Below are positions 4,307 through 53,515 of a stretch of DNA of 64,000 nucleotides, piece by piece. Each line of letters begins with the position of its first letter. Position 1 is the first letter of the stretch. Source of the DNA: an uncultured Clostridia bacterium (lineage in GTDB: Bacteria; Bacillota; Clostridia; Lachnospirales; Lachnospiraceae). The notes beneath the pieces are model-generated. The model was not told the origin of the DNA and ran no database searches. It was given only the letters and a program-made list of their open reading frames with translations. Both the position numbers and the translations under genes were made by a program. The DNA lies in assembly GCA_947385955.1 (NCBI GenBank), contig CANDNA010000010.1:1-64000 (forward strand), given 5' to 3'.

Positions 4307-4345
4307 CGCTATGCGGTCCGGGATGGATCTGCATAGCGTTTTTTT
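4307..4345 (+). terminator. Rho-independent terminator after the CAP gene
   Basis: Perfect 8-bp stem CGCTATGC / GCATAGCG around a 16-base loop, followed by seven T. It sits 46 bases after the CAP stop codon. Confidence 0.85.
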
Positions 4346-4825
4346 ATTTCACAGGAAAATGCCTGTTGCTGTAAAACATGAAAGTAAATTGTTTTCCTGT
4401 GAAATAAAACCCTCCGGGGGATGCGCACTCCGCGCAAAAGGGAAATGGCTGCTATCGCAGCCGCGCTCCGGCGCGAGTGTGCGTTGGGACGCACACTTTA
4501 TTTCACAGGAAAATGCCTGTTGCTGTAAAACATGAAAGTAAATTGTTTTCCTGTGAAATAAAACCCTCCGGGGGATGCGCACTCCGCGCAAAAGGGAAAT
4601 GGCTGCTATCGCAGCCGCGCTCCGGCGCGAGTGTGCGTTGGGACGCACACTTTATTTCACAGGAAAATGCCTGTTGCTGTAAAACATGAAAGTAAATTGT
4701 TTTCCTGTGAAATAAAACCCTCCGGGGGATGCGCACTCCGCGCAAAAGGGAAATGGCTGCTATCGCAGCCGTGCTCCGGCGCGAGTGTGCGTTGGGACGC
4801 ACGGTTTATTACACAGGAAAGTTCC
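4345..4825. repeat. Tandem array of three 154-bp units plus a partial fourth
   Basis: Units start at 4345, 4499 and 4653; a 19-base partial copy begins at 4807. The first two look identical and the third differs at a few bases near its end. Each unit has nested palindromes: TTTCACAGGAAAA pairing with TTTTCCTGTGAAA about 30 bases on, GGCTGC-TATC-GCAGCC, GCGCACTC facing GAGTGTGCG, and GTGCGT-TGGG-ACGCAC. Open frames across it on both strands are by-products of the 154-base period and are not genes. The array starts in the T-run of the CAP terminator and ends about 80 bases before the next gene. Confidence 0.95.
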
Positions 4826-4903
4826 TGTCAGGGATTTTTCCGGAAAAACAGTTGACCGGGAGGAATATGAACGATAAACTGAGGGGGAGAGGGGAGGATA
4901 TCT

Positions 4904-35795: not shown

Positions 35796-35867
35796 GGCGT
35801 GTTGGTCAAGAGGTTAAGACGCCGCCCTCTCACGGCGGAATCAGGGGTTCGATTCCCCTACACGCTG
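35796..35867 (+). tRNA. tRNA-Glu (anticodon CTC)
   Basis: 72 bases, CCA not encoded. Acceptor stem GGCGTGT / ACACGCT (one G-T pair), D-arm GTTGGTCAAGAGGTTAAGAC, anticodon stem CCGCC / GGCGG with loop CTCTCAC (anticodon CTC), and T-arm AGGGG-TTCGATT-CCCCT. The CTC anticodon reads GAG glutamate codons. Confidence 0.95.
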
Positions 35868-44525: not shown

Positions 44526-45065
44526 ATGAGTGAAATGAGCGAATTGAAGAGACAGGAAGAACAGGCCGCTTCAAATGAGCATGATACGCAAAAAGGCAAG
44601 TATATGACCTTTAAATCCGGAAATGAGTATTTCGGGCTGGAGATTCAGTATGTCAATGAGATTATCCAGTTTCAGACGATTACGGCGATACCGGAGACAG
44701 AGGATTATATCAAGGGTCTGATCAATCTGAGAGGAAAGGTGATCCCGGTAGTGGATGTCCGTCTGCGTTTCAAGCAGGAACCTTTTGAATACAATGACAG
44801 GACCTGCATTATCGTAATCAATGTGAAATCCATGATGGTAGGGCTGATCGTGGAGAAAATTGCTGAGGTGGTGGAAATCAAAGAAGAAAATATACTGCCT
44901 CCGCCCAATATTGGCCGTGCCGATAAATCCCATCACAAATATGTATACGGAATCGGTAAGGTGGGGAATGCGGTGAAGCTTCTGCTGGATCCGGATAAGC
45001 TGCTGAATGATGAGGACCTGACGGTTATGGAACAGGCCAATGATATGATATTAGAAGAAGAGTAA
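44526..45065 (+). CDS. cheW: Chemotaxis coupling protein CheW
   Basis: 179 residues, ATG 44526 after AAAGGAACAGGAAC. After a 25-residue polar N-terminus comes one CheW domain: [52 protein letters not shown], and a C-terminal LLLDPDKLL. It links CheA to receptors. Starts 24 bases after cheA and 13 before the receptor gene. Confidence 0.96.
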
Positions 45066-45078
45066 GGGGGAGAAACAC

Positions 45079-46440
45079 ATGAAAAATATGAAAATGAAAA
45101 CAAAGATGATTCTGGGTTTTCTGGTGCCGATTGCGATTACGGTGATCAATATCCTGATCGGCGATCTGACTACCAAATGGGCGACATCCATTACAAATGA
45201 AAAAGAAAAAGAGATTTTTACCAATCTTTCCACAATTGCCACGGCTGTTTTTGCCGTTGTTTCGGTAGTGGTTACGGTAGTGATTGCATTGGGGCTGATC
45301 AAGACCATTGAGAAGTCGGTGAAGCAGCTTTCCGATGCTGCCAAAGAAATTGCTCTGGGCCATGTCAACATTAATCTGGTTAAGTACAACAACGATGAGT
45401 TTGGCGTACTGGTGGATGAATACAACAGTGTGATTGAAAATATCAAGTATCAGGCCGAGATTGCAGAGGCGGTGTCCAACGGGAACCTGACAGTACAGGT
45501 CAATCCCAAATCTTCGGAAGATTTGCTGGGCAATTCCCTGAAAAAGCTGGTGGAGGATAACTTAAATGCCCTGACCAATATCAGTGATGCCGGTTCTCAG
45601 GTAACAGTCAGCTCTTCTCAGGTGGCAAGTGCAAGCCAGGCACTGGCACAGGGTTCCACACAGCAGGCAAGCGCCATTGAAGAGATTACGGCATCCATTG
45701 ATGAGATTGCGGAAAAGACAAAACAGAATGCGGAAGAAGCCAATCAGGCAGCCGGGCTGGTGGCACAGGCTATTTCGGATGTACAGCAGGGGAATGGCCA
45801 GATGCAGAATATGATGGAGGCAATGCAGAGCATCAACAAATCATCGGAAAGCATTTCCAAGATTATCAAGGTCATTGATGATATTGCATTCCAGACCAAT
45901 ATCCTGGCATTGAATGCGGCAGTGGAGGCAGCAAGGGCAGGAGAGGCCGGAAAAGGGTTTGCCGTAGTGGCAGAGGAAGTCAGAAGTCTGGCGGCAAAGA
46001 GCGCTTCTGCAGCAGCAGAAACGGCAGAGCTGATCGAAGATTCCATTGAAAAGGTCAATGCCGGTACCAAAATTGCGGATGAAACCGTAAAATCTATGGA
46101 AGCAATTACCAAGAGAGTACAGGACAGTGAAATGATTATCAATGGTATCGCAGAATCCTCTAATTATCAGGCAACTGCGGTAGCTCAGATTGAGCAGGCG
46201 ATCTCTCAGGTATCTCAGGTGGTACAGACCAATTCCGCTACCAGCCAGCAGTGTGCGGCAGCCAGCGAAGAGTTGTCCAATCAGGCATCCAGAATGCGTG
46301 AAATGCTTGCGATCTATAATCTGGGAGCAGGCAGTTCCTATTCTTCTTCCTCTTATAAGAGTGATTCCTACGCTTACTCTTCGGCATCTGCTGCAAATGA
46401 ACAGGTGATATCTCTGGGAGATGATTTCGGAAAATACTGA
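45079..46440 (+). CDS. Chemoreceptor (MCP) with almost no outer domain
   Basis: 453 residues, ATG 45079 after AAGGGGGAGAAA. TM1 (about 11-29) and TM2 (about 52-74) are joined by only some 22 residues, so a periplasm-like ligand pocket is missing. A HAMP follows (75-130), then the long cytoplasmic signalling hairpin with the tip [23 protein letters not shown] and [12 protein letters not shown]. The C-terminus is Ser/Tyr-rich and lacks a CheR pentapeptide. It must sense membrane state, cytoplasmic cues, or a protein partner; the neighbouring kinases or the stator-like pair are candidates. Confidence 0.93.
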
Positions 46441-46454
46441 AGCAGATAAATCAT

Positions 46455-46485
46455 GACACAGGGACGGAAGCTCCTGTGTCTTTCT
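46455..46485 (+). terminator. Hairpin after the chemoreceptor gene
   Basis: GACACAGG / CCTGTGTC stem with a 10-base loop, followed by TTTCT. A second small hairpin (GCAGGAA / TTCCTGC) lies near 46500. Probably a partial terminator. Confidence 0.55.
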
Positions 46486-46562
46486 GCGTATGAGAATGGG
46501 CAGGAAGGGGTTTCCTGCAGGATGGAACTATGGAAATAAGATGAAAAGGAGAGTGTTTTCAA

Positions 46563-46916
46563 ATGGGTTTATTTGAAGAATTAAAGGCCCTGGGTGTGGA
46601 TGTAGACGGAGGGCTGAAACGGATTAACAACAATGAGAAACTTTATACAAGGCTGCTGGGATCTTTTGTCAAATCCATTGAGTCCCAGTATGTACAGCCG
46701 GATTTTGACGCAGCGGAGTGTGAAGGGGCGATTGAAAAAGCCCATGCCATTAAGGGAACGGCCGGCAATCTGTCCATCACTCCGGTATATGAGGCTTATA
46801 CGGAAGTCGTGAATCTGCTCCGGAAGGGGCAGATCGAAGAGGCAAGACCGATTCTGGCCAGGATCCTTCCCGTTCAGAATGAGATCGCTGCCTGTATCAA
46901 AAAATATATGGTATAG
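46563..46916 (+). CDS. Stand-alone Hpt (histidine phosphotransfer) protein
   Basis: 117 residues, ATG 46563 after AAAAGGAGAGTG. One four-helix Hpt domain with H61 in the AHAIKGTAGNL motif. It can pass phosphate between a kinase receiver and a final regulator. It directly precedes the hybrid kinase (37 bases), making a likely phosphorelay with that kinase's receivers and one of the HD-GYP or CheY-like proteins upstream. Confidence 0.9.
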   Translation: MGLFEELKALGVDVDGGLKRINNNEKLYTRLLGSFVKSIESQYVQPDFDAAECEGAIEKAHAIKGTAGNLSITPVYEAYTEVVNLLRKGQIEEARPILARILPVQNEIAACIKKYMV

Positions 46917-46953
46917 AATTTTTGCATGACGCTAATACATTGGAGCGAAAAGA

Positions 46954-49494
46954 ATGAATAAAAGGATAAATAACTTTTTCAGAGGCAGTGTTGTGACTGT
47001 TGTGGTTGTGTGCGTTGTGGTGTTTGCTTTTCTGACTTCGTTTATGACTCATCAGACAAAACAGACCGTTACGGAAATCAGTGACAAATATATGGCTGAG
47101 ATGAGCAGACAGATCAAACAGAAATTTGAAGTGGTGATTACGCTGCGTCTGGGACAGGTGGAGGGCATCATCATGCGTACTCCTCCGGAAGAGGCTAAGT
47201 ACAGTGCCGACATGTTGGAAGAGCTGAAGATGAGTGCCGAGATCCGCAGCTTTTCCTGGCTGGGACTGTATGCTGCAGACGGTAAGATCGAAAAGATCTA
47301 TGGAGAGGATCTGGAGATTGTGAACGACGGCGATGTGCTGGGCTCTCTTGAGCGGGATGGTGTGCTGGTGGAAGAAGGAAGAACACCGGATGGGGGAAAA
47401 ATCCTGCTTCTGGGAGTACAGGCTGCCTATCCCATGCAGAATCAGCATAAAAGTGTTGCTCTGGTTGCCGGACTGCCGATGGACTATCTGAGTTCTGTGC
47501 TTTTCCTGAATGAAGATGATGCGATGGTGTATTCGCATATTATAGACAGTGAAGGAAATTTTGTGGTCCGAAGCGCAGGTGCATTCCGGGAAAACTATTT
47601 TTCACGGATTAAGGAAGAATTTGAGGCATTTGAAGGCAAAGAGGCGGAAGAATATGTCAGTGAGCTGCGGGAGGCCATGCAGAACCGGAGTGTGTATTCT
47701 ACAATCGTTTCGATGGGGGGAGAGCAGAGACATGTATACTGTCTGCCCCTTTCGGAAAACACTTCCTGGTATCTGATTTCAGCCATGCCAAACGGCTATA
47801 TGGAAGAGTCGGTTTCCAGCCTGGATTCCCTTCGTACCCTGGTGATGATATGTTCTGTGGGAATGATCCTGCTGGTGATGTCGGTGATCTTCGTCATTTA
47901 TTACCGGCTGTCCAAACAGCAGATCAGGGATCTGGATCAGGCCGTGGAAGAGGCAGTGCATGCCAATATGGCAAAGAGCGAATTTCTTTCCAGTATGAGC
48001 CATGACATCCGTTCCCCGATGAATGCCATCATTGGTATGACGGAAATTGCCCAGAGGAATATTGATGATAAAATCAGGGTGGAGGACTGCCTGCATAAGG
48101 TGGCGCTCTCCAGTAAGCATCTGCTGGGACTGATTAACGATGTGCTGGATATGTCCAAGATTGAAAGCGGCAAGATGACACTGAACGAGGTCCCTATGTC
48201 TCTGCGGGAAGTCATGGATGATATCGTGAACATCATACAGCTGCAGGTCAAAGCCAGGGCACAGCAGTTTGATATTTATATCCAGAAAATCACCACAGAA
48301 AATGTATACTGTGATACGGTGCGTCTGAATCAGGTACTGATCAATCTGCTGACCAATGCAGTGAAATTTACCCCGGAAGGCGGACGGGTGGATGTGCATG
48401 TATTTCAGGAAGCATCTCCCAAAGGGGAGGAATATATCCGTAACCATTTTGCAGTGGAAGATACCGGCATCGGTATGTCGGAGGAATTTCAGAAAAAGAT
48501 ATGGGATACTTTTTCCAGAGAAGAAACCGACGAAGTGCGTCACATTGTGGGAGCCGGTCTGGGAACTTCTATCACGAAAAAAATCATTGAGCTGATGGGC
48601 GGCACCATTGATCTGAAAAGTGAGCTTGGAAAGGGCAGTACCTTCCATGTGACACTGGATCTGAAAAAGGCGGATGAGAGTGAAATGGAAATGAGTCTGC
48701 CCGATTGGAATATTCTGGTGGTGGATGACAATGAATGGCTGTGCCTGAGTGCGGTTTCCAATCTGGAAGAGCTGGGGGTCCATGCGGAGTGGACGCTGGA
48801 CGGCCGGGATGCGGTCAAGATGATCGAAGAGCGTCATAACAAAGGAGAGGATTACCGGTTTGTACTGGTAGACTGGAAGATGCCCAATATGGACGGCATT
48901 GAGACCATCCGGGAGATCCGTAAGCGGGTGGGCAGAAGTGTCCCGATTTTCCTGATTTCGGCTTATGACTGGAATGAACTGGGAGAAGATGTGGCGCCGG
49001 AAATCGAGGGATTTATTTCCAAACCGCTCTTTAAGTCCACCCTGTATGAACGTCTGAAACAATATGTGGAAGGGTATGATGCTCAGACAGAAGAAAAAGA
49101 AGAAGAGGTGGATTTTACCGGAAAGCATATTCTTCTGGCAGAAGATATGGACATCAACTGGGAAGTGGCTTATGAGATTCTTTCCATTACCGGTATGCTG
49201 CTGGAACGTGCAGAAAACGGACAGATCTGTGTGGATATGTTCCGGAAATCCGAAGTGGGCTATTATGATGCCGTTCTGATGGACATTCGTATGCCGGTTA
49301 TGAACGGATATGATGCCACAAAGGCGATCCGGGCTCTGGAGCGTCCGGATCATACGCTGCCGATCATTGCCATGACAGCGGATGCTTTTTCCGATGATGC
49401 GGAACACTGTCTGGAATGCGGTATGAATGCCCATATTCCAAAGCCGCTGGACATCGGCGAGTGTATGCGGGTGCTGCAGAAATTCCTGGGCTGA
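46954..49494 (+). CDS. Hybrid sensor histidine kinase with two receiver domains
   Basis: 846 residues, ATG 46954. TM1 about 14-32, an outer domain of about 260 residues (single-Cache-like: SWLGLYAADGKIEKIYG and NTSWYLISAMPNGYM), TM2 about 296-316. HisKA with H350 in SSMSHDIRSPMNAIIG, HATPase with INLLTNAVKF, EDTGIGMS, and GAGLGTSITKKI. REC1 has D640 (LVDWKMPNMDG) and REC2 has D777 (LMDIRMPVMNG). In REC2 the acidic start reads LLAEDMDIN. There is no fused Hpt, but one is coded just upstream, giving a His-Asp-His-Asp relay. Confidence 0.94.
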   Translation: MNKRINNFFRGSVVTVVVVCVVVFAFLTSFMTHQTKQTVTEISDKYMAEMSRQIKQKFEVVITLRLGQVEGIIMRTPPEEAKYSADMLEELKMSAEIRSFSWLGLYAADGKIEKIYGEDLEIVNDGDVLGSLERDGVLVEEGRTPDGGKILLLGVQAAYPMQNQHKSVALVAGLPMDYLSSVLFLNEDDAMVYSHIIDSEGNFVVRSAGAFRENYFSRIKEEFEAFEGKEAEEYVSELREAMQNRSVYSTIVSMGGEQRHVYCLPLSENTSWYLISAMPNGYMEESVSSLDSLRTLVMICSVGMILLVMSVIFVIYYRLSKQQIRDLDQAVEEAVHANMAKSEFLSSMSHDIRSPMNAIIGMTEIAQRNIDDKIRVEDCLHKVALSSKHLLGLINDVLDMSKIESGKMTLNEVPMSLREVMDDIVNIIQLQVKARAQQFDIYIQKITTENVYCDTVRLNQVLINLLTNAVKFTPEGGRVDVHVFQEASPKGEEYIRNHFAVEDTGIGMSEEFQKKIWDTFSREETDEVRHIVGAGLGTSITKKIIELMGGTIDLKSELGKGSTFHVTLDLKKADESEMEMSLPDWNILVVDDNEWLCLSAVSNLEELGVHAEWTLDGRDAVKMIEERHNKGEDYRFVLVDWKMPNMDGIETIREIRKRVGRSVPIFLISAYDWNELGEDVAPEIEGFISKPLFKSTLYERLKQYVEGYDAQTEEKEEEVDFTGKHILLAEDMDINWEVAYEILSITGMLLERAENGQICVDMFRKSEVGYYDAVLMDIRMPVMNGYDATKAIRALERPDHTLPIIAMTADAFSDDAEHCLECGMNAHIPKPLDIGECMRVLQKFLG

Positions 49495-49515: not shown

Positions 49516-49544
49516 TTGCTTTTGCATTCATTGGGTGGTATACT
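49516..49544 (+). promoter_or_regulatory. Promoter of the stator-like pair
   Basis: TTGCTT at 49516-49521, 17-base spacer, TATACT at 49539-49544. It resembles the rimP-operon promoter at 51669 (TTGCAA-17-TATACT). Confidence 0.7.
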
Positions 49545-49566
49545 GAAACAGAATCAGGCAAAGAAC

Positions 49567-49598
49567 AAAAAAGAGTGGAATGTGTTCCACTCTTTTTT
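49567..49598 (+). terminator. Leader hairpin/attenuator before the MotA/ExbB-like gene
   Basis: Perfect 14-bp stem AAAAAAGAGTGGAA / TTCCACTCTTTTTT with loop TGTG, ending in six T. It lies between the promoter at 49516 and the ribosome site at 49604, so transcripts must read through it. It may also end read-through from the hybrid kinase gene. Confidence 0.8.
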
Positions 49599-49615
49599 CT
49601 AAAGAGGAGGTTTTT

Positions 49616-50746
49616 ATGAGAAACAAATGGTATATTCTGTTGATAATTGTCTATATCCTGACCTTTGGCTTTATCCTGGATATCAATGGGGTGTTTGCCG
49701 AAGAGGTGGTACTGACTGAAAATCTGGTGATCAATGTGTCTTTTCTGGTCATCATCGGTATTCTGTTTCTGTTTTCCATTATCAGCTTTATCCGTCTGAA
49801 CTCTCTGACCGGGGCGCTGGTGCGGGCAGCAGGGGAGATGGAGCGTCAGTTTGAACCGGATCGGAAAAATCTGTGGCCGGAGTATCGGAAGAAGCCGGAG
49901 CCCTTTTCCAATTCCGTTTTAAACCGCAGGTTTGCCATGTATCAGAAGCATGTAAGCGTACATACCGACAAAAAAGGGAATGTGACAGATGCCTGCCCGG
50001 TGGAGACCTATATAAATGAAGCCCTGGTGAATCAGGTGGGCAGGACATGGTTTAATACGAATATTTCGGGCGCTATGACAGGACTTGGTATTCTGGGAAC
50101 TTTTCTGGGCCTGTCGCTGGGCCTGAGTTCTTTTTCGGGAAATGATATTTTTACCATTTCGGAAAATATTGCACCGCTGCTGGACGGTATGAAAGTGGCT
50201 TTCCATACATCCGTGTACGGTATTTTCTTTTCCCTGATTTTTTCTTTTGTATACCGCAGCCTGATGGCGGATGCCTATGATAAGCTGGACCGGTTTCTGG
50301 ATGCTTTTCATGAATATGTGCAGCCTAAGGTACATACGAAACAGGAAGCCATGAGCAGCATGCTGCTGTATCAGGCCAATATAGCAGGCTCCCTTCGGAA
50401 AATACAGGAGCTGATGCAGGGCAATGCGCAGGCACAGCTTGACGGTGTGGAGCAGATTGTCCGTCAGTTTATGACATGTATGTCGGAAACAATGGGGACA
50501 GAGTTCGGAAAGCTGGGAAGAAGCCTGGAGCAGTCCTGTGAGGCGCAGGGAAGCTGCACAGAGGAGATGCGGCAGTTAACGGAACGGATGCAGAAGATGC
50601 TGGAATCCTGCAATACGCTGAATGAAGTACTGGCACATACTGTGGACCGGCAGAAAAAGGTGGAGGATACGCTTTCCGATACCTGCGAAAGAATCGGTAA
50701 TGAGCTGTATACACTGGGACAGATGAGGGATATGTATGAGAAATAG
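49616..50746 (+). CDS. MotA/TolQ/ExbB-type proton-channel subunit (ZorA-like)
   Basis: 376 residues from ATG 49616 after AAAGAGGAGG. Four membrane helices at about 5-22, 38-60, 151-175 and 193-215. The third reads ISGAMTGLGILGTFLGLSLGL, the ExbB/ZorA-type pore helix. A 90-residue cytoplasmic loop separates TM2 and TM3, and a 160-residue helical tail (216-376) follows, longer than in ExbB and shorter than in ZorA. The MotA torque loop and PG-x-x-A motif of flagellar stators are not obvious. Its stop overlaps the partner gene by 11 bases. Likely the ion-channel part of a stator-like motor. Confidence 0.82.
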   Translation: MRNKWYILLIIVYILTFGFILDINGVFAEEVVLTENLVINVSFLVIIGILFLFSIISFIRLNSLTGALVRAAGEMERQFEPDRKNLWPEYRKKPEPFSNSVLNRRFAMYQKHVSVHTDKKGNVTDACPVETYINEALVNQVGRTWFNTNISGAMTGLGILGTFLGLSLGLSSFSGNDIFTISENIAPLLDGMKVAFHTSVYGIFFSLIFSFVYRSLMADAYDKLDRFLDAFHEYVQPKVHTKQEAMSSMLLYQANIAGSLRKIQELMQGNAQAQLDGVEQIVRQFMTCMSETMGTEFGKLGRSLEQSCEAQGSCTEEMRQLTERMQKMLESCNTLNEVLAHTVDRQKKVEDTLSDTCERIGNELYTLGQMRDMYEK

Positions 50747-51644
50747 AAGAAAAGAGATATTTGAAGAGCCGGGCTACTGGCAGTCCTATTCAGATATGAT
50801 GGCTGCGCTTTTGCTGATCTTTATTCTGCTGATTGCCATTACTCTGTTTGTCTACAAACAAAAAAGGACGGATCTGGAAGAGGCCCGGCTGCAGCTGGAT
50901 ACTACGCGGCAGGAACTGGAAGCCTCAGAGCTGGAGCTTTTGAACTCCATGAAGGAGCTGGAGGAAGCCTATGCAAAGGCCACGATGACAGAGGACGAGC
51001 TGGCAGCGGCTTATCAGCGGATTGATGAGGCACAGGCGGAACTGGATTCCACCAGAAGTGAGCTGCGGGATATTGTGGGGATCCGGACAGATATTATCGG
51101 AGAACTGCAGAAGCGGTTTGACAATTCGTCTATGAAGGTGGATGCTCAGACAGGGACCATCACCTTTTCTTCGGATGTGCTGTTTCGTTATAACAGCGCC
51201 AGACTGACACCGGAGAGTAAGGCTACGCTGCAGGAGATTATTCCCATGTATCTGGGGGTTTTGCTGCAGGATACGTTCCGGCCCTATATTTCAGAGATTA
51301 TTATCGAAGGCCATACAGATACGGACGGGGATTATCAGAGCAATATGGTGCTGTCCACCAACCGGGCGGATTCTGTGGCACAGTTCTGTCTGGATGTGGA
51401 AAACGGTCTGACGGAAGAACAGATTGAGCAGTTACAGAAGATGCTGACTGTAAACGGCAGGTCTTACAGCGTACCCATCTATGAAGCAGGCAGCAGTGAA
51501 GTGGATATGGCGGCTTCCCGTCGGGTGGAAATCAAGTTCCGTCTGAAAGAAGAAGAGATGATTGAAAAGATTACGGAGATTTTGGAACAGGATGGACAGC
51601 AGGAAGAGCCCGGACCGGAAGAACAGCCTGAGCAGGCACAGTAA
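50736..51644 (+). CDS. MotB/OmpA-like cell-wall-binding stator subunit (ZorB-like)
   Basis: 302 residues, ATG 50736, translationally coupled to the channel gene by an 11-base overlap. A short cytoplasmic start leads to one TM (20-42) with D20 in QSYSDMMAALLLIF, the place of the proton-carrying Asp of MotB/ZorB. A coiled coil (43-115) follows, then an OmpA-type peptidoglycan-binding domain (about 130-275) with FSSDVLFRYNSARLTPES, IIIEGHTDTDGDYQSN, and LSTNRADSVAQFCL. The C-terminus is Gln/Glu/Pro-rich. With its partner it forms a 5:2 stator-like unit by analogy; what it drives is unknown. Confidence 0.85.
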   Translation: MRNRRKEIFEEPGYWQSYSDMMAALLLIFILLIAITLFVYKQKRTDLEEARLQLDTTRQELEASELELLNSMKELEEAYAKATMTEDELAAAYQRIDEAQAELDSTRSELRDIVGIRTDIIGELQKRFDNSSMKVDAQTGTITFSSDVLFRYNSARLTPESKATLQEIIPMYLGVLLQDTFRPYISEIIIEGHTDTDGDYQSNMVLSTNRADSVAQFCLDVENGLTEEQIEQLQKMLTVNGRSYSVPIYEAGSSEVDMAASRRVEIKFRLKEEEMIEKITEILEQDGQQEEPGPEEQPEQAQ

Positions 51645-51668
51645 GGCCACAATTTTTTCCAAAAATGC

Positions 51669-51697
51669 TTGCAAATACTGGATAAAAGTGCTATACT
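51669..51697 (+). promoter_or_regulatory. Promoter of the rimP-nusA-infB operon
   Basis: TTGCAA at 51669-51674, 17-base spacer, TATACT at 51692-51697, about 100 bases before rimP, leaving a long leader. Confidence 0.75.
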
Positions 51698-51731
51698 GTA
51701 TGAGATTTAATAGTATAAGACAGAAAGTGTG

Positions 51732-51762
51732 AAGAGTGGAACGAGTTCCACTCTTTGTTTTT
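51732..51762 (+). terminator. Leader hairpin/attenuator before rimP
   Basis: Stem AAGAGTGGAA / TTCCACTCTT with loop CGAG, followed by TGTTTTT. The ten stem bases on each side are the same as in the hairpin at 49567. As I recall, NusA controls its own operon by termination in the leader in Bacillus subtilis, which this hairpin would suit. Confidence 0.75.
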
Positions 51763-51799: not shown

Positions 51800-52261
51800 A
51801 TGGCAAAGAAAAAGTATGAGGAGAGAACGCAGGAGCTGCTTGCGCCGATTGCAGAGGCTGCAGGAGTGGGGATCTATGATGTGGAGTATGTAAAGGAAGG
51901 CAGAGAGTTCTACCTGCGGGCTTATATTGATAAAGAGGGGGGCGTGACCATCCAGGATTGCGAAAGAGTCAGCAGGGCGCTTTCCGACAGGCTGGATGAA
52001 GAGGATTTTATCGAAGATGCCTATATTCTGGAGGTCAGCAGTCCCGGACTGGGAAGGACGCTGAAAAAAGACCGGCATCTGCAGATGAGCATGGGAGAGA
52101 CTGTGGAAGTGAAAACCTATGTGCCGATAGACGGACAGAAAGAATTTACAGGGGCTTTGAAGGCTTTCGATGAAGATACCGTTACCATAGAAACAGAGGG
52201 TGTGCCGAGAGTTTTTGCAAGGAAAGAGGTTGCGCGGATCAAACTGGCGCTGGATTTTTAG
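51800..52261 (+). CDS. rimP: Ribosome maturation factor RimP
   Basis: 153 residues, ATG 51800 after GAAGGGGTGATC. Typical RimP: LAPIAEAAGVGIYDVEYVKEG, LRAYIDKEGGVTIQDCERVSRAL, LEVSSPGLGRTLKK, then the SH3-like C-terminal part. It acts in 30S subunit assembly. First gene of the operon, 30 bases before nusA. Confidence 0.97.
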   Translation: MAKKKYEERTQELLAPIAEAAGVGIYDVEYVKEGREFYLRAYIDKEGGVTIQDCERVSRALSDRLDEEDFIEDAYILEVSSPGLGRTLKKDRHLQMSMGETVEVKTYVPIDGQKEFTGALKAFDEDTVTIETEGVPRVFARKEVARIKLALDF

Positions 52262-52291: not shown

Positions 52292-53515
52292 ATGAACAAA
52301 GAGTTAATGGAAGCGCTTGATATTTTGGAGAGGGAAAAAGAAATCAGCAAAGACACTTTGTTTGAGGCAATTGAAAATTCTCTGATTACGGCATGCAAAA
52401 ATCATTTCGGCAAATCAGATAATATCAAAGTTGAGATTGACAGAGAAACCTGTGACTTTGTCTGCTATGCGGAAAAAGAAGTTGTGGAGGAAGTGGAGGA
52501 CGACTGCCTGCAGATTTCTCTGGAGGATGCCAGGGAAGTTTCCCATAACGCTCAGTTGGGCGATATGATTCATATTGAAATAAAATCCAAAGAATTTGGC
52601 CGTATTGCAACCCAGAATGCTAAAAATGTAATTTTGCAGAAAATCCGGGAAGAAGAAAAAAGCGTGATTTACAACCAATACTGCAAAAAGGAAAAAGACA
52701 TTGTAACAGGTGTGGTACAGCGGTATCTGGGACGGAATATCAGCATCAATCTGGGAAAGGCGGATGCGATTCTGACGGAAAGCGAGCAGATCAAGGGAGA
52801 AGTGTTCAAACCCACGGAAAGAATCAAGGTATATATTCTGGAAGTGCGGAATATGTCCAAAGAGCCTAAGATTCTGGTGAGCCGGACCCATCCGGAGATG
52901 GTAAAGCGCCTGTTTGAAGCAGAGGTTACCGAGATCAAAGACGGGACGGTGGAGATCAAAAGCATTGCCAGAGAGGCAGGCAGCAGGACCAAGATCGCAG
53001 TGTGGTCCAAAAATCCCAATGTGGATGCGGTGGGCGCGTGTGTGGGTATGAACGGCGCCAGGGTCAATGCCATTGTGGAAGAACTGCGGGGAGAAAAGAT
53101 CGATATTATCAACTGGGATGAAAACCCCGGCAATCTGATTCAGAACGCCCTTTCTCCTGCGAAGATTGTTGCGGTGTTTGCGGATCCGGATGAAAAGACG
53201 GCAAAAGTGGTGGTGCCGGATTATCAGCTTTCCCTTGCTATCGGAAAGGAAGGACAGAATGCGAGACTGGCAGCGCGCCTGACCGGTTATAAAATAGACA
53301 TCAAGAGCGAAACACAGGCAAAAGATACACCCGGTTTCCGGTACGAGGATTATATGGATGAGTATGAGGAGGACTATGAGGAGGAAGACGGCCTGAATTT
53401 TGAAGATTCTTATGAGGAGACAGAAGAGGGCTTTGCAGAGCAGGAACAGACAGACGAGATGTCTGAGGAAGGAGCGGCGGAATGGGACGATTCGTCAGAT
53501 GCCTATGAAGAGTAA
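52292..53515 (+). CDS. nusA: Transcription termination/antitermination factor NusA
   Basis: 407 residues, ATG 52292 after TTAGGAGGAATC. N-terminal polymerase-binding domain (1-125), S1 domain (about 135-200), KH1 (SRTHPEMVKRLFEAEVTEI; GACVGMNGARVNAI) and KH2 (YQLSLAIGKEGQNARLAARL). The last 65 residues are strongly acidic (EYEEDYEEEDG), a tail not found in all NusA. It binds RNA polymerase and nascent RNA and shapes pausing and termination. Overlaps ylxR. Confidence 0.98.
   Translation: MNKELMEALDILEREKEISKDTLFEAIENSLITACKNHFGKSDNIKVEIDRETCDFVCYAEKEVVEEVEDDCLQISLEDAREVSHNAQLGDMIHIEIKSKEFGRIATQNAKNVILQKIREEEKSVIYNQYCKKEKDIVTGVVQRYLGRNISINLGKADAILTESEQIKGEVFKPTERIKVYILEVRNMSKEPKILVSRTHPEMVKRLFEAEVTEIKDGTVEIKSIAREAGSRTKIAVWSKNPNVDAVGACVGMNGARVNAIVEELRGEKIDIINWDENPGNLIQNALSPAKIVAVFADPDEKTAKVVVPDYQLSLAIGKEGQNARLAARLTGYKIDIKSETQAKDTPGFRYEDYMDEYEEDYEEEDGLNFEDSYEETEEGFAEQEQTDEMSEEGAAEWDDSSDAYEE

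Follow-up and report, generated by a model that had tools for sequence, protein, structure and literature searches.

A conserved rimP-leader hairpin and the same stem before a neighbouring ZorAB-like gene pair in a Lachnospiraceae genome

Introduction

Two adjoining operons of an uncultured Lachnospiraceae bacterium, one encoding a motor-like protein pair and the other RimP and NusA, begin with leaders in which a promoter is followed by a hairpin with the same stem. Does this stem reflect common control by NusA, a copy of one hairpin in the other leader, or chance? A sequence-only reading of this DNA had put forward the first answer as a possibility, since NusA of B. subtilis acts on its own leader by termination. 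That premise is borne out by a review, which states that B. subtilis NusA autoregulates through NusA-stimulated termination in its leader (PMC12288461). The rimP-leader has been described as a short conserved terminator before rimP-nusA-infB with no visible antiterminator, and NusA was named as the best candidate for its regulator (Naville & Gautheret 2010, PMC2965389). A passage in Mandell et al. (PMC8060035), citing Mondal et al. 2016, describes distal U-tract interruptions as frequent in NusA-dependent terminators.

Results

Two leaders with a common promoter core and stem

The window analysed here is the whole stretch of 64,000 nt (contig CANDNA010000010.1 of assembly GCA_947385955.1, positions 1 to 64,000). 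The leader of the motor-like pair is called the stator leader below. The features of the locus are as follows.

46954–49494, plus strand: hybrid histidine kinase gene, upstream of the stator leader
49516–49521 (TTGCTT) and 49539–49544 (TATACT), plus strand: putative sigma-A-type promoter of the stator leader with a 17-nt spacer, from sequence and consensus match
49567–49598, plus strand: terminator-like hairpin of the stator leader, AAAAAAGAGTGGAA-TGTG-TTCCACTCTTTTTT, from sequence and folding
49616–50746, plus strand (ATG at 49616): ZorA-like protein of the MotA/TolQ/ExbB family, from family matches
50736–51644, plus strand: ZorB-like protein of the MotB/OmpA family, from family matches
51669–51674 (TTGCAA) and 51692–51697 (TATACT), plus strand: putative promoter of the rimP-nusA operon with a 17-nt spacer, from consensus match
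51732–51755, plus strand: attenuator hairpin of the rimP leader, AAGAGTGGAA-CGAG-TTCCACTCTT, with the tail TGTTTTTGG to 51762, from conservation and covariation
51800–52261, plus strand (ATG at 51800): rimP (PF02576, PF17384)
52292–53515, plus strand: nusA (PF08529, PF13184)

The twin TTGC-17-TATACT promoters and same-stem hairpins were present at the positions given by the sequence-only reading. The 10-bp stem AAGAGTGGAA/TTCCACTCTT is common to both leaders; in the stator hairpin it forms the inner stem and is lengthened by an A6/T6 extension. RNA folding gave the hairpin as the dominant predicted structure of both leaders (z = -3.4 and -2.9). Both promoters contain CTTGC-N19-TATACTG, and the promoter core and the stem are all that the leaders share: the loops differ (TGTG in the stator leader, CGAG in the rimP leader), and the leader comparison found no clear similarity between promoter and hairpin or 3' of the hairpin, in agreement with the earlier description of unlike surroundings. 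By itself, such promoter likeness amounts to a modest coincidence, because TTGC-N18..20-TATA(A/C)T occurs four times in the window, both leaders included, against 0.55 expected. The T-run reported after both hairpins holds for the stator leader, where TTTTTT is uninterrupted, and only in part for the rimP leader, where the run is broken (TTTGTTTTT). Neither leader matched Rfam at the gathering score, and searches with an E-value threshold returned only chance-level matches; the sole gathering-score match in the window was a tRNA at 35796.

Occurrence of the stem in the genome and the family

A genome search for the stem, as the sequence-only reading had suggested, found GAGTGGAA-N3..8-TTCCACTC at exactly two places in the whole 3.16-Mb genome, the two leaders, both in the window, and the reversed control at none. 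When up to three mismatches were allowed, the next-best places in the genome all had three, and their number was about that of the control. These whole-genome pattern scans rule out, for this genome, that the hairpin is a common terminator. Within the genus, the strict pattern was found exactly in 7 of 10 genomes, twice in this one and once in each of the other six. The shorter pattern AAGAGTGG-N4..14-CCACTCTT was present in 146 of 397 family genomes, mostly once, against about 4 genomes for the reversed control. Away from rimP, this 8-bp stem turns up sporadically across the family, and the sites examined were mostly ordinary intergenic terminators; 13 sites fetched from other genomes comprised two rimP leaders, with the rest mostly intergenic and a few in predicted coding sequences. 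A-run/T-run terminators with AAGAGTGG arms likewise occur sporadically at unrelated loci of other family genomes, and none of the non-rimP sites examined in other genomes held a second copy of comparable kind in a leader. The objection that the hairpin is a common terminator of many unrelated loci, foreseen by the sequence-only reading, therefore applies weakly: it fails in this genome, with its two places, and finds some footing in the sporadic intergenic terminators of the family.

The rimP hairpin is a family-wide leader element

In this genome, the rimP hairpin represents the known, family-wide rimP-leader premature-termination element. It lies in the 5' UTR of rimP-nusA, is followed by a T-stretch and is kept in relatives; 28 of 30 fetched pattern matches lie on the rimP strand, 46–215 nt before the gene. 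Across 51 aligned rimP leaders of the family, pairing holds in 98.8% of stem cells, and two-sided changes occur at 7 of the 10 pairs. The covariation score was 0.257 against 0.121 in shuffles, and none of 500 shuffles reached any of the observed measures. The outer stem pairs are 86–100% of one pair type, and the inner two vary freely. The stem pattern had itself served to retrieve about half of the leaders, so that in these the outer eight pairs are biased towards invariance; searches with the RimP protein gave the remaining half, and conservation there was the same. Because a constraint on structure alone is not expected to fix the sequence of the outer pairs so strongly, we may reasonably infer that the stem is recognised by a factor. 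Of 150 family genomes, 128 contained a covariance-model match with E <= 0.01, a count of matches not individually placed relative to rimP. The claim that this hairpin is a leader terminator has thereby gained ground, as the element is deeply conserved and belongs to a known attenuator class with NusA as its proposed regulator.

The element resembles the published rimP-leader (PMC2965389) as a short hairpin with a T-stretch in the 5' UTR of the rimP operon, with a strongly conserved stem and no visible antiterminator. It differs in stem sequence, GAGTGG(A/G)(C/T/A)... in the family against the published GGGc...gCCC; with GTGG(A/G)C..G(T/C)CCAC in the family and GTGGAA..TTCCAC here, polarity is the same and the match partial. 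Congeners carry similar TTGC...TATA-type boxes upstream of rimP. Uninterrupted T-runs in the family leaders are 0–5 long, mostly 2–3, and the broken tail of the rimP copy here has the interrupted U-tract noted for NusA-dependent terminators. Tetraloops were GNRA in 17 of 36 family rimP leaders (alignment A1, columns 33–40) and mostly of CGCG/TGCG type in this genus. By eye, a tRNA-like sequence was seen directly before the rimP leader in L012 (G007), L021 (G015) and L218 (G289).

The gene pair is ZorAB-like

The best matches of the pair were ZorA and ZorB in PADLOC (ZorB1, E = 2.7e-68), NCBIfam and the PDB, so the earlier label of a stator pair does not fit: the pair resembles ZorA/ZorB and not flagellar MotA/MotB. 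It is not the flagellar stator: a canonical MotA, the strongest match in the genome at 117 bits, is encoded on another contig (C16), and the ZorA-like protein of the pair reaches 29 bits. The likeness to the Zorya motor lies in these top family, PDB and PADLOC matches. Unlike Zorya, the pair scores far below the curated NCBIfam ZorA/ZorB cut-offs (at best 58 bits against 250, and 89 against 400), and it has no further zor genes adjacent to it, its immediate neighbours being the hybrid kinase and rimP. At least 80 other genomes, almost all of them Lachnospiraceae, encode relatives of the pair. In the four of these that were examined, the flanks differ and include an integrase and a resolvase, along with a type I restriction-modification pair, so the pair may be mobile.

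Beside the pair, 44526–49494 encodes a CheW-like protein and a methyl-accepting chemotaxis protein (both named from sequence alone), a small Hpt-like ORF and the hybrid kinase, which has a 47% identical paralogue on contig C1. At 4343–4828, a tandem array holds 3.2 copies of a 154-bp unit (98% match), and the units contain a GTGTGCGT-TGGG-ACGCACAC hairpin.

The stator hairpin is known from one genome

We compared the stator locus with 80 loci from other genomes that encode relatives of the MotB-like protein, 77 of which hold enough upstream sequence for leader comparison. None of the 80, the congener G006 included, had a rimP-type stem in the stator leader. The rimP-type stems found in these loci were the rimP copy of G006 and, in L108, an unrelated match some 2 kb ahead of motA. 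In G006, the gene order is the same (kinase, pair, rimP) and a promoter, TTGCTA-17-TATAGT, follows the kinase stop codon at an equal distance; its rimP stem is unchanged, while the kinase-to-pair spacer has diverged and the promoter is followed by two unrelated hairpins. The pair also precedes rimP in G008, which has no hairpin in the pair's leader. The shared stem in a stator leader is known only from this genome.

Of the 77 orthologues whose upstream sequence is long enough, 16 have any terminator-like hairpin within 250 nt, mostly well away from the start codon, so attenuation in the leader is ruled out as a trait common to such pairs. The lack of the stem in the 80 orthologous loci rules out an ancient shared control of the pair and rimP-nusA. 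The stator copy, which precedes a ZorAB-like pair and is not in a rimP leader, also departs from the published element (PMC2965389) in its missing conservation among orthologues. Its T-run, with the first six T unbroken and a matching A-run, has the form of a strong terminator and lacks the interrupted U-tract of NusA-dependent ones. The sequence-only reading had named independent divergence of the two stems in close relatives as evidence against itself, and G006 comes close to this, with its rimP stem kept and its stator hairpins unrelated. The comparison of leaders for co-varying stem changes, which it had suggested, found such changes in the rimP leaders; the stator stem is lacking in the relatives.

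Discussion

We consider it probable that two elements of different age lie side by side at this locus: an ancient attenuator before rimP-nusA, probably autoregulated by NusA, and a strong terminator specific to the lineage. The stem of the terminator was probably copied over a short stretch from that of its neighbour, or else matches it by coincidence. For the rimP element, the data show conservation, covariation and position. RNA polymerase starting just after 51697 would make a short leader, in which the conserved hairpin with its interrupted U-tract would release part of the complexes before they reach rimP-nusA; high NusA would then increase release and lower the expression of its own operon, by analogy with B. 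subtilis. Like that system (PMC12288461), the locus has a terminator ahead of the nusA operon, and rimP-leader U-tracts are interrupted; the uninterrupted U-tract of the stator copy is unlike it. On this analogy, NusA control of the rimP-nusA operon in this genome is likely. The stator hairpin is probably a lineage-specific strong intrinsic terminator between promoter and ZorAB-like pair, where, judged from its anatomy, it could stop readthrough from the upstream kinase gene and damp transcription from its own promoter.

As to the origin of the shared stem, inner AA/TT pairs are present in the rimP leaders of G000, G001, G002, G004, G006, G007 and G008 and in none of the 44 other aligned leaders. 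The stator stem has these genus-marking pairs, and a single change separates its TGTG loop from the TGCG of the congeners. Together, these two features speak for a short copy taken from the rimP hairpin of the genus itself rather than for an old co-option; the 10-bp stem was probably acquired from the neighbouring leader in this way. The shared tract amounts to about 24 bp plus the promoter core, and no duplication tract is visible, because the flanks of both leaders are unrelated. Against the rimP-leader model, the stator hairpin scored 36.4 bits on the minus strand and 32.0 bits on the plus strand; we do not claim an inverted copy, since the tail likeness is merely T-rich and the loop fits the plus strand. 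The alternative that an ordinary A-rich/T-rich terminator matches the rimP stem by chance, which overlaps with our preferred account, could draw on the terminators with AAGAGTGG arms at unrelated family loci, some of the same A-run/T-run form, and on the fact that an observation selected from a scan will bring some chance matches. However, the match reaches the genus-typical inner pairs, the hairpin sits in the operon directly adjoining rimP, and in a small null sample (130 hairpins, 4095 terminator pairs) identical 8-nt arms at different loci were almost absent, evident orthologues apart; we hold chance to be somewhat unlikely. It is unlikely, too, that the stem is the relic of a leader duplication made when the pair inserted between kinase and rimP, with the kinase-proximal copy marking the old rimP-leader position. 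The CTTGC..TATACTG cores and the stem do follow in the same order in both leaders, and in G031 the rimP leader immediately follows a related kinase, without a pair in between, but that kinase is just 42% identical to the one here and no homology is left between promoter and hairpin. A copy dating from the insertion would be expected in G006, unless lost, yet this congener with identical gene order has different hairpins. We rank a copy or relic ahead of coincidence.

Control of both leaders through one sequence-specific NusA-responsive terminator, with the pair and rimP-nusA rising and falling together, would agree with the identical stem at just these two genome places, with their common promoter-hairpin-gene build, and with the sequence constraint on the outer rimP-leader stem beyond pairing, which suggests factor recognition. 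It is nevertheless very unlikely. Neither the 80 orthologous loci nor the two congeners with the pair beside rimP have the stem in the stator leader, the two U-tracts here differ in the very trait associated with NusA dependence, and the non-rimP sites examined in other genomes offered no comparable second leader copy. On these grounds, the earlier proposal that the motor pair may be under the same NusA-dependent control is not supported. Sequence comparisons gave no sign of a conserved, specific NusA co-regulation of the pair, and such co-control of the motor-like pair is possible but unsupported. About 75% of the intrinsic terminators of B. subtilis are stimulated by NusA (PMC12288461), so one further terminator that responds to NusA would have to stand out against ordinary ones before it could count as a case of special co-control. 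Less probable still, the stem of the rimP leader could be a portable element that responds to NusA by virtue of its sequence, and its copying into the leader of the ZorAB-like pair in this lineage could have brought the pair under NusA feedback.

The preferred account, an ancient rimP attenuator beside a lineage-specific terminator, bears on a widespread element whose trigger has been inferred rather than fully worked out. The present analysis contributes an alignment of 51 genomes from one family, in which covariation is clear and the outer stem near-invariant. With so little variation in sequence, recognition by a factor becomes open to testing, and the natural second copy of the stem in this genome, with its different U-tract, allows a side-by-side comparison.
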